DNA from: Herpetosiphon aurantiacus DSM 785
GTDB taxonomy: Bacteria; Chloroflexota; Chloroflexia; Chloroflexales; Herpetosiphonaceae
Reading direction: 5' to 3'
Assembly: GCA_000018565.1 (NCBI GenBank)
Contig: CP000875.1
Coordinates: 3,797,199-3,861,198, forward strand
Length of the DNA: 64,000 nucleotides
Of this stretch, positions 38,101-45,649 are shown piece by piece. The translations under genes and the position numbers were made by a program. Below the pieces are notes generated by a model. That model saw only the letters and a program-made list of their open reading frames with translations. It was not told the DNA's origin and did no database searches. Within the stretch, counting starts at the first letter, position 1; every line of letters starts with the position of its first letter.

Positions 38101-38958
38101 ATGAAATTTGCGCGAATACTCATTCTACTGTTATTAATCCATGGTATTTTGCCACAAGCAAGCTTTGCCAACCCCGATGCACCAACCGCTGCAACGCTCG
38201 CATGGAGCAGTGCCTATGCTTCAACCGCTGAGGGCATTGATGTGTGGCTGCGAATTAATGTGGTTGGGGCGGCCCCAACCGATGATGTCAATCTTAAATT
38301 TATCTACCAAACATTTCAGCAAACAGCAGAATATAATCACGACTATGAACCAACCAATTGGCCAAGTGGCACCAAAGGGGCAATTGTTGGCAATAATCGG
38401 GTAGCCTATATCAAAATTCACATCAAAAAGAATGATTACCCAGAGCCAACTGAGACCTTTCAAGTTGAATTACGCTCAGATGCAGCAAACACCGTCATCT
38501 CTGGGCCAGCCCGAGTAACCGTCACAATTCGCCGCTCACGGCTGATGAATCCAATCGCTGGGATTATGGAATCATGTGTGAATGGCGGCGAACCCAATAA
38601 TGACTTTCCCGCATCAGCGGGCCAAATTGCGGTGAATGGCGGTTGGTGTAACACCAGCTTTGAAACAGAAGCTGTTCGTGATGTCGATTATTATCATGTG
38701 GAACAATCGACGGCTGGGAATATCACAATTCGGCTTGAAAACACCACCCCTGATCAACATGACCTTAACATTTATCTATATTACCGTGATGTGCAAGAGG
38801 GCTACAAATTATATTTACAATCTACCAATCCCGGTCAGCAGGCCGAGGTGATTAGTAATGCCCCGATTGCGGCGAATACCAACTATTTGATTGCCGTGTA
38901 TTGGGCTAGTGATACTGGCGATAAAATACCCACCTATCGCTTAAGTGTCTCACGCTAA
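38101..38958 (+). CDS. Secreted Calx-beta + PPC-domain protein, paralog 3
   Basis: A 285-residue protein with a signal peptide (1-23, ending ASFA), then a Calx-beta-like and a PPC-like domain that match paralog 2 in order and length (EGIDVWLRINVVGAAPTDD, EPTETFQVELRSDAAN, ESCVNGGEPNNDF, TTPDQHDLNIYLYYRD). Both conserved Cys are present. ATG follows TAGGAG. A 15-bp hairpin follows the stop. Confidence 0.83.
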   Translation: MKFARILILLLLIHGILPQASFANPDAPTAATLAWSSAYASTAEGIDVWLRINVVGAAPTDDVNLKFIYQTFQQTAEYNHDYEPTNWPSGTKGAIVGNNRVAYIKIHIKKNDYPEPTETFQVELRSDAANTVISGPARVTVTIRRSRLMNPIAGIMESCVNGGEPNNDFPASAGQIAVNGGWCNTSFETEAVRDVDYYHVEQSTAGNITIRLENTTPDQHDLNIYLYYRDVQEGYKLYLQSTNPGQQAEVISNAPIAANTNYLIAVYWASDTGDKIPTYRLSVSR

Positions 38959-39066: not shown

Positions 39067-39930
39067 ATGCACTACAAACGTTGGTCATTGTTCCTCTTAA
39101 TTCTGCTTAGTTGCGTAGCGTTCCCAAGCGCTCAGGCCGAAGAGGCAAGCCCGCAAGCAGTAACGGTATCGTGGGAACGCACGAATGTTCAAACCACCGA
39201 AGGCATAAATGTTTGGCTTAAAGTCGTCGTCAATGGCGCACTCAGCGACGAAAGCCTCAGCCTCAATCTACGCTACCAAACCTTTAACGGGACAGCAATT
39301 GCTGGGACTGATTACTCACCAACCACAGGGACTGGCAATGCCTTCACAATCACCGGATTACGTCGCTATGCCTTGATTAATATCGGGATTTTGCAAAACG
39401 CAGTGGCCGAACCCTACGAAACCTTCCAAGTAGAGTTGCGCTCGGAAAATGCGAATGTTGCCGTAGCTGGCCCAGCGCGGGTCACGATTGGAATCAATCG
39501 TAGCCGCTTGTTTAGCCCTGTCGTCGGGCAGCTTCAACCATGCATTAATGTTGGTGAGCCAGCCAATAACGCCTCAACGACCGCCGGATTCATCGCGCTG
39601 GCTGGGGGCTGGTGTCAAGGCGACTTTATTGGCGAGGTTCCGAGTAATTTCGATTACTATCAATTTAAGCTTGCGGTTGGGGGTAAAGTAACGATTCAGC
39701 TCGAAAATATCACCCCTGATCAACACGATTTTAACTTGTATTTATACTATCGTGATGGCAACGGCCAGTTTCAACCCTATGTTCAATCAGGCAATCCTGG
39801 CCAAAGCGCTGAATTATTGAGCAATATTCCGATTGCCGCCAACACCACCTATCTGATCAATATTATTTGGGCGGCCAAAACTGGCGACAAAACCCCAATT
39901 TATCGGTTTAGCGCCCAATACCAACCTTAA
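39067..39930 (+). CDS. Secreted Calx-beta + PPC-domain protein, paralog 4
   Basis: A 287-residue, more diverged paralog. Signal peptide 1-24 (ending SAQA). The Calx-beta-like domain has TEGINVWLKVVVNG, GTAIAGTDYSPTTG and EPYETFQVELRSENAN. The PPC-like domain has QPCINVGEPANNAS, LAGGWCQGDF and ITPDQHDFNLYLYYRDG. The GTDY and ETFQ motifs are the best visible match to a genuine Calx-beta fold. Last of the four secreted genes before the kinase pair. Confidence 0.83.
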   Translation: MHYKRWSLFLLILLSCVAFPSAQAEEASPQAVTVSWERTNVQTTEGINVWLKVVVNGALSDESLSLNLRYQTFNGTAIAGTDYSPTTGTGNAFTITGLRRYALINIGILQNAVAEPYETFQVELRSENANVAVAGPARVTIGINRSRLFSPVVGQLQPCINVGEPANNASTTAGFIALAGGWCQGDFIGEVPSNFDYYQFKLAVGGKVTIQLENITPDQHDFNLYLYYRDGNGQFQPYVQSGNPGQSAELLSNIPIAANTTYLINIIWAAKTGDKTPIYRFSAQYQP

Positions 39931-40087: not shown

Positions 40088-42295
40088 ATGGAGTCGTTTG
40101 AACATACACAGTTGGGCGAGTATAGCTTGCAGGATGAAATAGGCCGCGGCGGGATGGCACTCGTCTATCGGGCGCATCACCCCGATTATGGCTCGGTAGC
40201 ATTTAAAGTGCTACCCCCCTATTTTGCCCACGATACCGACACGCTCCGACGATTCATGCTCGAGGCACGGGCAATTCGTGAACTGCACCACCCACATATT
40301 GTGCAGCTCTACGAAGCCAGTGATATTCCTGACCCAAATAATAGTCGTCAACGCATCCATTACATTGCAATGGAGTTTATTGGCGGTGGCACACTCAGCG
40401 AACGCTTACATACGCAACCACGCCAACAACTCAATCCAACGATTGAGATGGGCTTGCATATTGGTTCGGCCCTCGATTACGCTCACCGCAAGCAGTTTAT
40501 TCACCGCGATATTAAGCCAAGCAATATTCTGTATCGCCACGATGGTCATGCAGTTTTGGCCGACTTTGGGATTGCCCGGGTCAGCAATGAAGCCCGTATG
40601 ACCAAAACTGGTGGTTTTGCTGGGACGGTAGCCTACACCGCGCCCGAAATTGCTGAAGGCCAAATTGCCGATGCCCGCTCCGATATTTATGCCTTAGGCT
40701 TGATTCTCTATGAAGCCTTGGCAGGCAAAAACCCATATGCCAACATGCATGCCAATATTGCTGTTGCATTAAGCAAAATTATTAGCACACCTCTGCCGCC
40801 ATTACGCGAATTGGCTCCGCATGTGCCACCACTGACCGCCCAAATTATCGAGCGGGCAACCGCCAAAGACCCGGAACGACGCTTTGAGAATATGTCTGAT
40901 TTTGTTGAAGCCCTCAAACAGGCAAAGTTTGGGCGATCAGCAACCAAACCTGATGTGCAGTTGAATGCCCATGGCAAACCCATGATTCCAATTGCCCGAC
41001 CAAGTGGCAGTCGGACTGAACGTAGTTCTGAAGGCGATTCAACCCGCACCCAGGTGTTTAACCCAGTGGTTGGGGCTGCCAGCGCCGCTAATGTTGCAAT
41101 CTCAAAGCCAAACCAAGGTTTGGCCGGCCCAGCAAGTGGCGCAAACATGGCCTTGCCTGTTGAAGGAAGCCAAATTTATACGCCACCAGCAGGCAGTGGC
41201 CCTAACAGCCGCATCAATCAGCCCTTGAGTGGCGTAAATCAACCCTTACCAATGGGAGCCAACTCACAGGCCAATGTGGCGTTACCCAACGACGGGACCC
41301 AAATCTATACCCCTGAGCCAGTTGGCGCACTCAGTGGAACCAATATGGCACTCACTGGCGAGAGCACGCAAATGTATGCACCAGTGTCAGGAGTAAACCA
41401 ACCCTTATCAGGGGTGAATCAACCACTCACTGGCCAAAATCCAGTGCGTGGGCCAAGTTCACGGCCTAATCGCACCGTCAATGCACGGCCCATTGAGGTT
41501 GCCCGGCCTGGCACGGCGGTCAATCAAAATCTTGGCCCTAGCTCACAACCAAATCTCGGTTTTGACGGCGGCTCAGGCACATTTGCGGTTAATCGGCCAA
41601 ATAACAATAAAAAGAAGGCCTTGATCGCAGGCATCGGCGGCGGTATTCTCGGCCTGATATTAATTGGCGTGTATATGCTATCAAGCAGCAACACTGTCAA
41701 TCCCAACGATACCAATGGTACGACAAACGCCGTGCAATTTACCACCGATGGCAGTGCTACAGCCACCAGTGCAAGCACCAGCAATGGCAATGGCACACCT
41801 GTTGGTACTCAGCCAGCGGTTGTGGTTGATCCAGGTGTTGCAACCAGTACCTTGGCTCCAACACCTGAAAATAGCCCAACGCCTGAACCAACCGATACAC
41901 CTGTAGCCACGGCAACCTCCAATGCAGTTGTTGTAGCAACGACGCGTCCGCAAGCAACGAATCGCCCACGCCCAACTAATACGCCAAGCCAGCAACAAGC
42001 ATCTCCTGTCCCACCAACCAATACACCACCACCAGCCGATAGTGATGGCGATGGCGTGCCCGATGAAGTTGATGGCTGTCCTGGTGTGGCTGGGCCAAAT
42101 AATGGTTGTCCAATACCAACCGAAGTTCCACAGCCAACACCAATCCCTGACTCGGACGGTGATACAATTCCCGATAACGTCGATAATTGTCCCAATGAGC
42201 CTGGTGATCCAGCTCGGGGCGGGTGTCCAAAACCACCAGCAACCAATACACCACGGCCAACCGAAAAACCAACACCACCGCCGATTAATCCATAA
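40088..42295 (+). CDS. Ser/Thr kinase with FHA-ligand-like repeats, membrane segment and TSP3 calcium repeats
   Basis: A 735-residue kinase. The domain (~10-278) is canonical: [31 protein letters not shown] and TAPEIAEG. A long cytoplasmic linker (~283-510) contains four copies of a short motif, TRTQVFNP (~319), EGSQIYTP (~359), DGTQIYTP (~402) and ESTQMYAP (~425), and several SGVNQPL repeats. A membrane segment lies at ~511-533. Outside are a Ser/Thr/Pro stalk and two TSP3-like repeats ([15 protein letters not shown] and [15 protein letters not shown]), homologous to those on the PP2C phosphatase. ATG follows 'gtaggatgctgct'. Confidence 0.92.
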
Positions 42296-42384
42296 TGTTG
42301 TCGGACGATCAGGAGCAAAAGAGCGCACCCACCAGTGCGCTCTGTCTATGATCACAAGCTATGTTTAGCATTAGGTGGCCCTCT

Positions 42385-43491
42385 ATGCAAAACTTAAGTA
42401 ATCTTCAACTTGGGGAGTATCATCTAGCTGAGCAGATCGGCCAAGGCGGTATGGCGGTTGTCTATAAGGCTGAACATCCACAGTTTGGCACAACCGCATT
42501 TAAAGTCTTGCCTTCAATGCTGATCCATGTCGGCGAATTGTTAACCCGTTTTCTCAACGAGGCTGACGCTGTGCGGATTTTACATCACCCGCATATTGTC
42601 CAATCGTATGAGACCGGAGCAGTGCCCCATCCCCAACTAGACGAGGAGGTCTATTTTATTGCGCTCGAATACATCGAGAATGGTTCGTTATTGGAGCGCA
42701 TGATCGCTAGCTCGCTCGCCGTCGAAGATGTGATCAAAATGGGCATCGATATTGGCTATGCCTTGGAATATGCTCATAGCAAGGGGATTATTCACCGCGA
42801 TATCAAGCCCAGCAATATCTTATTTCGCAACAATGGTCAAGCCGTTTTAGCCGATTTTGGCATCGCCAGCACGGCCCAATATATTCGGCTCACCAAAACC
42901 GGCAATGTCACTGGCACAATCGCCTACATGGCCCCAGAAATTATGCAAGAAGTGCCAGCCTCGCCACGCTCGGACCTCTACTCGCTGGCCTTGGTGCTCT
43001 ATGAAACCTTGACCAATTCACGGCCTTTTGGCACCGATACAGCCTCACCACAGTTGGTGCAAAAAATCTTGCAAGAGCGAATTCCGCCACTGCAAGATGT
43101 TATACCGGATATTTCACCAACAATCGCCCACGTCATCGAACAAGCCTTGGCCAAACAGCCAAGCCAGCGCCAAACATCGGTTGGTGAATTTGTCAGCCAA
43201 TTGCAACATGCGCTGCAACGCCGTACCCCCAGCCAATTTACCATCCCATTGCCTGAGCCATCCGAGGATCTATTGGTCGATCAGTTTACCAAGCCCCAAC
43301 AACGTAAGCCCAAGGCTAAACCGATCGAGGTCAATCGACCAAATGCGGCTGCTTCATCAACGCTTGGCATTCAAGCCAGCAATGATCTCGCCAGCTCGCC
43401 ACGGGCAAAATTTACGACAACCCTCCAGTTTGTGTTAATCGCAGTTGTGACCTTCTTTTTAGTCCTAGGTATTTTTTTCATTTTTCAATAA
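42385..43491 (+). CDS. Tail-anchored Ser/Thr protein kinase
   Basis: A 368-residue kinase starting at ATG 42385 (MQNLSNLQLGEYHL) behind AGGTGG; the ATG 24 bp earlier has no ribosome site. The kinase domain (~10-275) is canonical ([35 protein letters not shown]). A ~60-residue basic linker leads to a C-terminal membrane segment (LQFVLIAVVTFFLVLGIFFIF) that ends the protein, so there is no outside domain. It is closely related to the preceding kinase and appears to be a duplicate without sensor tail. It may serve as an amplifier or a constitutive partner. Confidence 0.9.
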   Translation: MQNLSNLQLGEYHLAEQIGQGGMAVVYKAEHPQFGTTAFKVLPSMLIHVGELLTRFLNEADAVRILHHPHIVQSYETGAVPHPQLDEEVYFIALEYIENGSLLERMIASSLAVEDVIKMGIDIGYALEYAHSKGIIHRDIKPSNILFRNNGQAVLADFGIASTAQYIRLTKTGNVTGTIAYMAPEIMQEVPASPRSDLYSLALVLYETLTNSRPFGTDTASPQLVQKILQERIPPLQDVIPDISPTIAHVIEQALAKQPSQRQTSVGEFVSQLQHALQRRTPSQFTIPLPEPSEDLLVDQFTKPQQRKPKAKPIEVNRPNAAASSTLGIQASNDLASSPRAKFTTTLQFVLIAVVTFFLVLGIFFIFQ

Positions 43492-43573: not shown

Positions 43574-43605
43574 AGCGCTTCATCGTAAAACAGCGATGAA
43601 GCGCT
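43574..43605 (+). terminator. Hairpin after the last kinase gene
   Basis: AGCGCTTCATCG (43574-43585) pairs perfectly with 43594-43605 around an 8-nt loop. The T-run is poor, but the 12-bp stem sits 83 bp after the stop and closes the block. Confidence 0.7.
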
Positions 43606-43633
43606 TGTAGTTAACCAGCCTGCCAAGTATATT
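43605..43633 (+). promoter_or_regulatory. Predicted promoter of the structured RNA
   Basis: TTGTAG (43605-43610), a 17-nt spacer and TATATT (43628-43633). The expected start, about 43640, coincides with the first bases of the long-range closing helix of the RNA candidate. The -35 is weak. Confidence 0.5.
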
Positions 43634-43639
43634 AACAGT

Positions 43640-44118
43640 GTAACCCGTATGGATACGGTTCAGCGGGAACAGCACCTAAACAAACCAAACCAAACCCCAC
43701 ATTGGTCACCGCTATCGACCAACGGAATGGCCGTTGGAAATAGTCGGTGGTGCGTCGAAACTAACACATTCATTAATTAGTGTTATGAGGAAACGCACAA
43801 AGACAGGCACGTGGCTCGGGCTGGTGGTGACTGATCACCGACGAACACCCATCTGCTGCTCGGCTATCAATGTGAAGCATTGTTATAGTTCTTGCGTGAT
43901 GTGACAATAACCGTAATTTTAAGGTCAGCCGCAAGGAACGCTAGCAAGCCCAGCCCCTGCGAGGGGTCTCCTCGGCAGGCAGCCGCTTCGCTTAGCCATA
44001 ACAGTTAGGAGTTTGTTTAGCTTTGAAGCTGTCGAACCGTATCCACGGGTCCTTTGGTTAGAGTGTATTGTTTGAAAAAAAGAATTGCCACCGTCTCGGA
44101 GGGGATGGTGGCAATTGC
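43640..44118 (+). ncRNA. Candidate structured non-coding RNA, class unknown
   Basis: No ORF covers this stretch. The ends pair over long range: ACCCGT (43643-43648) with ACGGGT (44045-44050), GGATACGGTT (43651-43660) with 44035-44044, then CAGC (43661-43664) with GCTG (44028-44031) and CTAAACAAAC (43676-43685) with 44011-44020. Inside are at least four local hairpins: 43707-43749 (three stacked helices, CACCG/CTAT/CCAACGG), 43750-43798 (GTGCGT/TAACAC), 43864-43888 and 43954-43966. A promoter-like sequence precedes it and a terminator ends it. I do not see the hallmark sequences of RNase P RNA, tmRNA, SRP RNA or group I introns. The strand is inferred from the promoter; the helices alone would also fit the complement. 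Confidence 0.62.
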
Positions 44119-44120
44119 GT
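44083..44120. terminator. Bidirectional terminator between RNA candidate and GT-C gene
   Basis: AATTGCCACC (44083-44092) pairs with 44107-44116. The plus side runs into GCGTTTTAG and the minus side into CTTTTTTTC, so it ends both the RNA candidate and the minus-strand membrane-protein gene. Confidence 0.85.
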
Positions 44121-44121
44121 T

Positions 44122-45585
44122 TTAGGGCTTTGGCACGTAGGTAAACACGATATCGGCAAATTCTAGTTGATAATGCTCGTCAATCAGGCGAATGCTCTCT
44201 TCAGTCCAGCGTCCCGTCGCATCGCGCCGATCAGTTTGCACGTTAAACGGCAGCATAATCAAGCTCCAACGGCGTTGCCGAATGCTTTCATAGAAGCCAT
44301 GAGCTGGCCAAACGCCACTCTCAATCGCTGGCCCCATCGTCGAAGGATCATCGAAAATCAAGGGTTTGCCCGCCGCAATCGCCAAGCCCGGGTTATCGAG
44401 CAATACATCGCCGGGCTTAGATTGAATATAGGGTACAAATCGCGCCAAATCGAGAATGCCAAACTCGCCCCCATACCAACTGGGGGTTTGGCGTAAACAC
44501 CAGCCTTGCAGCAACAAGCCACCGATCGCCAGCGCCGTCGCTGCCCGCCGCCAACCTTGCTTACTCAAACCAAGGTTAATCAGCAAACCAGCCGCCAAGC
44601 CACCAGCCAAGCACCACGCTAGCATTGTTTCTAAAAGATGATTATGGTGCGCCCCAACTTCGCCCGCTCCATACAACGAAATTGGAGCCAGCGTGGCATA
44701 CAAGGCCGCTTGGCGCATGGCATAATGTCGCCAGTACAAGCCCAAGCCCAGCAGCGCCAAGCCAACCAAAGGCAACGACCAGCCAAGCAATCGCACATAT
44801 TTCCACATCAGATCAAAGCTCCACCACTCCGAGCGATGCAAGCCCCAAATGTGGCGCGTCGCCCAGCCAGCGGTCACAAGATCCAACGCGAGATAGGGCA
44901 AGCCTGCCGCCAAAACGGCAAGCGTGCCAAATTTCAGGCCTTTGCGCCAATCGTGCAGCAGCAAATTAAGCCCAACCGCCAGCGGAGCCATCGCCAAGGT
45001 TTGTTTGGCTAAAAATGCCAAGCCAAAACACACTGCCGCCCAACCAAACCAACGCCCTTCACGCCAACTAGCCAACAGCAAACCCAGCGCCGTAAAGCTC
45101 AAGGCAAACAGATCTGGCTTGAGTCGCAAGGCCCATAATTGGGCTGGTGGAAAGGCCAGCCAACACGCCCCAACCGCTAAACCGAGCAACCAAATACGGG
45201 TATGGCTAGCCACAAACAGGCTGATAATCAGGCCAATCGCCAGCATTGAGAGCAGCGAAATCCAACGGCCTGCCGTAAAAGGCCGCTCAGGGTCAAACGG
45301 CATAAACGAAAGCAGCATCGGGTGCAAAGGGGTATAGGGAGCCGAAATAAATTCTTCGGCTACAATGGGGCGATACAACGAGCGATCACGCCGAATCAGT
45401 TGGGATTCGTGCAATAAGGTGCCTTCAAGCCCATCGTCGGGGGTTTGCAAGTTCAGCACAGGCCGCCGCGCCAAGCCTCGTTCAAAAGCTGGCCACATCA
45501 AGCCCAGCATCATCACCAACAAGAATCCGCCCAAACCAAGCCGCCACCACGCCTGTTTTTGCCCTTCAGTCTGCTGTTTTTCCAT
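44122..45585 (-). CDS. Polytopic GT-C-like membrane glycosyltransferase
   Basis: A 487-residue protein starting at 45585 (MEKQQTEGQKQAWW), the start that leaves one hydrophilic N-terminus before the first membrane segment. There are about ten to twelve membrane segments. An acidic loop after the first segment, LQTPDDGLEGTLLHES, fits the DD/DE metal-lipid site of GT-C (PMT/ArnT-like) enzymes. The C-terminal ~140 residues (GDVLLDNPGLAIAAGKPL, FDDPSTMG) are extracytoplasmic. The likely role is transfer of a sugar from a polyprenyl carrier to protein or lipid; the acceptor is unknown. It stands alone, with its own terminator. Confidence 0.75.
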   Translation of the reverse strand: MEKQQTEGQKQAWWRLGLGGFLLVMMLGLMWPAFERGLARRPVLNLQTPDDGLEGTLLHESQLIRRDRSLYRPIVAEEFISAPYTPLHPMLLSFMPFDPERPFTAGRWISLLSMLAIGLIISLFVASHTRIWLLGLAVGACWLAFPPAQLWALRLKPDLFALSFTALGLLLASWREGRWFGWAAVCFGLAFLAKQTLAMAPLAVGLNLLLHDWRKGLKFGTLAVLAAGLPYLALDLVTAGWATRHIWGLHRSEWWSFDLMWKYVRLLGWSLPLVGLALLGLGLYWRHYAMRQAALYATLAPISLYGAGEVGAHHNHLLETMLAWCLAGGLAAGLLINLGLSKQGWRRAATALAIGGLLLQGWCLRQTPSWYGGEFGILDLARFVPYIQSKPGDVLLDNPGLAIAAGKPLIFDDPSTMGPAIESGVWPAHGFYESIRQRRWSLIMLPFNVQTDRRDATGRWTEESIRLIDEHYQLEFADIVFTYVPKP

Positions 45586-45649
45586 CGGTTTCAATTCTTC
45601 CACAAGCCAACAAAAGCCCATGGATGATAGCAGATCCGCCAACTAACGT

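Follow-up and report, generated by a model that had tools for sequence, protein, structure and literature searches.

Large, elaborately folded non-coding RNAs are, to our knowledge, few in bacteria, and we know of none described in the gliding, predatory Chloroflexota. Several of those studied are ribozymes, ribonucleoproteins or unusual particles. Here we ask whether an intergenic region of Herpetosiphon aurantiacus DSM 785 encodes such an RNA and, if so, of what kind and with which role. All positions given without a contig name refer to the whole 64,000-nucleotide stretch of DNA that was analysed (the window), which covers 3797199-3861198 of the largest contig. The region is flanked by a Ser/Thr kinase gene (42361-43491, + strand) and by a convergent gene (44122-45642, - strand), which encodes a membrane mannosyltransferase-like protein with a Pfam match below the cut-off. 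The original prediction had placed here a structured non-coding RNA of unknown class without an ORF, adjoining a block of signalling genes.

We located the core of the structured RNA at 43640-44050 on the + strand. It is noncoding and about 410 nt long. That this segment is a real structured RNA we regard as virtually certain. From the sequence we infer that it is transcribed; the transcript probably ends at about 44120, which would give a length of about 480 nt.

Homologues and covariation

By a DNA search of 60 relatives the RNA was detected in all six Herpetosiphon genomes, the five others being 87-98% identical, and a 39-base match was obtained in another genus, G007, where the whole RNA was recognised from collinear short matches. 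R1, a covariance model built on P5-P6 of the RNA, was run over 158 genomes of the class Chloroflexia; it gave 161 bits for G007 and revealed a third genus, G008 (117 bits, E = 7e-28), whose copy had been absent from model building. In total, eight homologues from three genera were available, the RNA having diverged in the two Herpetosiphonaceae genera beyond Herpetosiphon. G006, a genome of the same family that is 75% complete, gave no match. Outside the family, no convincing homologues were found with R1 and R2 in 158 Chloroflexia, 400 Chloroflexota and 36 relatives (laxer filters). The best matches there were weak, with 22-26 bits at most, and all three that were inspected (L062, L063, L065) lacked the conserved motifs. 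A match on a UBA1466 contig (L012) was dropped because it rested on one 37-base stretch. Filter-free scoring of the DNA on either side of the homologous downstream gene in sister families did not disclose the RNA, and viral contigs, plasmids and phages gave no match beyond chance. Within the H. aurantiacus genome (6,785,430 bases, three contigs) the RNA is single-copy. Between the Herpetosiphon clades it is 87% identical, as compared to 64-68% at the third codon positions of its neighbours.

The eight copies were aligned with MAFFT by sequence only (alignment A6) and then counted on a named model of 16 helices and 89 pairs. In this alignment 95.0% of the cells were paired. Double-sided changes affected 37 of the 89 pairs, while the shuffles had a mean of 12.4 (sd 2.4) and none out of 500 was as high; the covariation score was 0.292 versus 0.144. 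Sliding the partners by 1-3 columns reduced pairing to 31-43%, a control that is somewhat biased towards the model since the structure was drawn from the same eight sequences. More weight belongs to the double changes. With hand-registered helices, 674 of 692 cells were paired and 41 of 90 pairs covaried. Pairing was thus kept, not lost, among the homologues. The independent lineages are few (two clades of one genus and two other genera), and therefore the sequences of the proposed helices P1a, P5 base, P6a2 and P6b1 hardly vary.

The folding of the whole region gave a z value of -4.1, and none of 100 shuffles was as stable. The reverse strand, too, folds better than shuffles, which would suit a fold arisen by chance or an element that acts at the DNA level or as a repeat and has no RNA function. 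However, the covariation above all shuffles refutes this reading short of an alignment artefact, and the single copy, the conserved promoter and the G-U asymmetry for the + strand speak against it as well. We consider its probability practically negligible. The asymmetry, 38 G-U cells versus 8 A-C cells in the hand-registered helices, also identified the + strand as the RNA strand.

Closing helices and inner arms

The core is closed by P1, whose 5' strand (43644-43661, +) pairs with the 3' strand (44034-44049, +) in all eight sequences with five covarying pairs, according to the same alignment and the hand-registered counts. P1 is composed of 43644-43647/44046-44049 (CCCG/CGGG), a 2-nt bulge (TA) and 43650-43661/44034-44045 (TGGATACGGTTC/GAACCGTATCCA), exactly the 16-bp closing helix with a 2-nt bulge that had been predicted. 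Its strands GATACGGTTC/GAACCGTATC are replaced by GATACAACCA/TGGTTGTATC in G007 and by GATACGGCTC/GGGTCGTATC in G008. The prediction had also called the combination of perfect long-range helices and no ORF hard to explain by chance. The perfect arm of P1, 12 bp long, is more than chance would give: the longest perfect inverted repeat with a spacing of at least 250 did not exceed 10 bp in any of 60 dinucleotide shuffles.

Inside P1 follows P2. The 5' strand of P2a (43669-43673, +) pairs with 44028-44032 and shows two covarying pairs, the homologues having ACAGC/GCTGT, CCAGC/GCTGG or TCAGT/ACTGA. The second predicted helix, a perfect one of 10 bp about 15 nt inside the first, corresponds to P2b, which begins 14 nt inside the closing helix and is formed by CTAAACAAAC (43676-43685, +) and GTTTGTTTAG (44011-44020). 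It contains three covarying pairs and a nearly invariant UAAACAA, and is kept only in part in G008. In the stretch 44011-44032 (+), as judged from the sequence alignment and the hand-registered helices, the 3' strands of P2b and P2a are separated by a conserved UUGAA internal loop. Compensatory changes, proposed as a check of the two closing helices, were thus present in both.

The stacked hairpins predicted at 43707-43798 exist as well and are P3 and P4. The P3 apical hairpin (43719-43737, +) has 7 bp, three of them covarying, and the conserved pentaloop (A/G)(A/U)UGG. P4 (43750-43798, +) consists of P4a (43750-43755/43793-43798) and P4b (43761-43766/43781-43786) with three and five covarying pairs, respectively, and a conserved internal loop GAAA/G(A/G)GGA. 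The P5 arm (43802-43861, +) has an invariant base, GACA/TGCTC, conserved CGGGC and GACGA motifs and an apical loop of 7 nt, UGACUGA (UGCAUGA in G008). The P6 domain (43879-44005, +) is a three-way junction with five, five, four and three covarying pairs in its helices. It comprises, all on the + strand, the covarying P6 (43879-43886/43998-44005), P6a (43890-43896/43930-43936 with 43902-43905/43924-43927), P6c (43941-43944/43992-43995) and P6b (43956-43964/43970-43979). P6b has an invariant bulged G and flanking AGCC/AGCCGC, and its apex varies between GAGG/CCTC, GCAG/CTGC and AAAG/CTTT. A small hairpin predicted at 43864-43888 can be formed by the window sequence, but neither G007 nor G008 has it, and the covarying P6 includes its 3' part. 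Since it is not conserved and conflicts with P6, it was excluded from the conserved fold.

A search for further shared helices yielded only four 4-bp matches, three of which were without covariation. The sole match with a double change, between CGAA or CGAU of P5 and UUUG or GUUG of P2, is not firm. A GGGC-GCCC pseudoknot of P5 with P6b is possible in every copy; being invariant, it is unsupported.

Gene boundaries, neighbourhood and known RNA classes

The predicted pair of -35 and -10 boxes proved to be kept in three genera. By sequence, the window contains a sigma-70-type promoter at 43605-43633 (+), with TTGTAG (43605-43610), a 17-nt spacer and TATATT (43628-43633). The same spacing occurs in G007 (TTGACT/TATATT) and in G008 (TTGACT/TATAGT). 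Directly upstream of the -35 box resides a perfect inverted repeat, the 12-bp palindrome AGCGCTTCATCG-N8-CGATGAAGCGCT (43574-43605, without strand). Its core consists of an inverted ATCG/CGAT enclosing a TNAAA-type loop; G007 keeps this core, and G008 does so less exactly. Palindrome and promoter are 92-94% identical between the Herpetosiphon clades versus 78-79% in the adjoining upstream intergenic DNA. The palindrome is a putative operator or activator site. The pattern CATCGTNAAACNNCGAT occurs only once in the whole H. aurantiacus genome, which rules out a regulon site; together with the kept core, this single occurrence suggests a dedicated regulator.

At the other end, where a terminator had been predicted, an inverted repeat forms a terminator hairpin at 44076-44123 (+) with an A-run before and a T-run after it. 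In the window this T-run (GCGTTTTAG) is weak, while the terminators that G007 and G008 have at this position possess longer, strong T-runs. The A-run before and the T-run after the hairpin make it probable that the convergent downstream gene uses the same terminator. No conserved ORF was found; the frames in the window are short and differ between the homologous copies, in line with the predicted lack of an ORF, and a peptide gene was ruled out for this reason.

A link to the neighbouring signalling genes was not supported. G008 has the RNA between a glycosyltransferase-2 gene and a convergent homologue (59% identical) of the gene downstream in the window; in G007 the gene before it is a similar glycosyltransferase-2 gene, and a co-directional glgX-like gene comes after it. 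The kinase gene adjoins the RNA only in Herpetosiphon, and a glycosyltransferase gene takes its place in the two other genera, so that the signalling neighbourhood is incidental. The locus is most simply explained by vertical inheritance. In the window, the kinase gene 42361-43491 lies next to a longer one (40088-42295), in whose product a Ser/Thr kinase is joined through a long repetitive linker to thrombospondin type 3 repeats. The regions 38101-38958 and 39067-39930 encode two similar secreted proteins in tandem, which looks like a gene duplication; a domain scan of the second protein disclosed Calx-beta and pre-peptidase C-terminal domains.

The same data bear on the possibility that the RNA serves a neighbouring gene in cis, as a leader, a riboswitch or part of a 3'-UTR. 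The intergenic position beside glycosyltransferase genes and the co-directional glgX-like gene of G007 would be compatible with it. However, the downstream gene is convergent in the window and in G008, the upstream gene encodes either a kinase or a glycosyltransferase 2, and the RNA is separated from its neighbours by its own promoter and terminator. As no co-directional downstream gene is constant and the neighbours differ between the genera, we rejected a leader or riboswitch and regard a cis-acting element in general as highly improbable.

Known large RNAs had been considered not to match, which was affirmed by covariance-model searches with Rfam 15 (4227 models). At the gathering score of each family, no match was obtained in the 64-kb window, and relaxing the threshold to E<=10 brought up just two models, both for eukaryotic miRNAs, far below their cut-offs and attributable to chance. 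The diverged G007 copy likewise had no Rfam match. The genome harbors its housekeeping RNAs elsewhere: tmRNA (184 bits; ARAGORN finds none in the window), 6S RNA (RF00013, C1:5436559-5436726, L068, 63.9 bits, above the Rfam cut-off), SRP RNA (RF00169, C1:4494085-4494184, 58.8 bits) and RNase P RNA (RF00010, C1:6221844-6221946, 54 bits, one domain only). Thus, the RNA is not a missing housekeeping RNA. The RNase P RNA (L015:1501-1603) matched RF00010 only at model positions 111-207 (cut-off 100); by eye, its surroundings appear full but divergent, with, for example, GAGGCAACTTCCC instead of the usual GAGGAAAGTCC. A retron msr-msd RNA, a group II intron and HEARO were rejected because no RT or HNH gene adjoins the RNA and no Rfam match exists. 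In the open-access literature we found no description of a Herpetosiphon ncRNA, which does not mean that none was ever described, and the main text of two pipeline papers does not name Herpetosiphon or Chloroflexus.

Taken together, the compensatory changes, which affect the arms as well as both closing helices, the kept promoter and terminator hairpin, the lack of a conserved ORF and the lack of an Rfam family corroborate a structured ncRNA of unknown class. Judged from its sequence, the gene represents an RNA family that is new in sequence and structure and without detectable relatives. It belongs to the informal kind of large structured orphan bacterial ncRNAs (OLE, raiA, smtA motif), having a long, multi-branched fold with compensatory changes and no conserved coding frame.

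Proposed role

The best explanation overall, which we hold to be fairly probable, is an independent trans-acting structured RNA, most likely the core of a ribonucleoprotein, that serves a process specific to Herpetosiphonaceae. The RNA would be an independent gene that has a sigma-70-type promoter and a terminator of its own and is probably controlled through the palindrome as operator. Joining both ends, P1 and P2 close a multi-branched fold composed of the P3/P4 hairpin pair, the P5 arm and the P6 three-way junction. Since a constant co-directional neighbour is lacking, the RNA very probably acts in trans rather than in cis. The pattern of conserved unpaired nucleotides suggests that it would do so within a ribonucleoprotein, as its structural core: GAAA/GRGGA of P4, CGGGC/GACGA and UGACUGA of P5, the bulged G of P6b and ACC/UUGAA of P2 may be protein-binding or tertiary contacts. 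For a ribonucleoprotein or scaffold, as against an RNA-only complex, a ribozyme or a base-pairing regulator, we see slightly better than even chances.

Another conceivable role is that of a base-pairing sRNA, in which unpaired stretches such as the A/C-rich linker 43686-43705 would pair with mRNAs. This linker between P2 and P3 is single-stranded in all copies, and a gene with its own promoter and a possible operator would suit such a regulator. On the other hand, the linker sequence is not conserved between the genera, the conserved bases reside in internal loops, and sRNAs usually have a much simpler structure, making this role quite unlikely.

Comparison with known RNAs is informative for a machine made of RNA only, that is, a defined particle without an obligate protein, alone or as a homo-oligomer, or a ribozyme. 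OLE, ROOL and GOLLD are large and ornate RNAs of bacteria that covary extensively, mostly have no clear function and are homo-oligomeric by cryo-EM (PMC12286853); the size and the branched, highly covarying fold of the Herpetosiphonaceae RNA would fit this kind of particle. However, the helix search disclosed hardly any additional covarying contact, and size alone predicts nothing, as the raiA motif was monomeric in the same study and HEARO works with a nuclease. We therefore consider an RNA-only machine unlikely.

The individual RNAs also differ from the one described here. ROOL and GOLLD are linked to phages, and the latter is often longer than 800 nt, whereas the Herpetosiphonaceae RNA is chromosomal, syntenic and single-copy and was matched neither by Rfam nor in viral contigs, phages or plasmids. 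HEARO, the omega RNA guiding IscB/IsrB, is similarly a folded single RNA and comparable in size (343 nt in one example; PMC12286853), but no HNH nuclease or transposon gene is adjacent to our RNA in the three genera, and Rfam gave no match. The raiA motif RNA, ModT (Clostridioides difficile, Bacillota and Actinomycetota), is a highly structured, independent ncRNA that works in trans (PMC11706538). It resembles the Herpetosiphonaceae RNA in being highly structured and independently acting, action in trans being only presumed for the latter, but occurs in over 2,500 species, has about 205 nt (PMC12286853) instead of about 410 nt and shares no Rfam-detectable similarity. The smtA motif or 'Soda Lake RNA' of Thioalkalivibrio (>350 nt, multi-stem, covarying, one narrow lineage; PMC11109978) is likewise large and lineage-restricted. 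By its description it is set apart, being named for and found upstream of smtA and belonging to another lineage.

To return to the trans-acting RNA, we give somewhat less than even chances to an undescribed class confined to Herpetosiphonaceae whose function in trans, as a ribonucleoprotein scaffold, an RNA-only particle or a ribozyme, would be that of no known bacterial RNA. The process served by a ribonucleoprotein core would be particular to this family. The finding adds an RNA family whose secondary structure is backed by covariation, whose gene has a promoter and well-defined boundaries, and whose host range among gliding predatory Chloroflexota is narrow. It yields a ready covariance model, and the single-copy, syntenic locus makes a deletion directly testable if the host is tractable.
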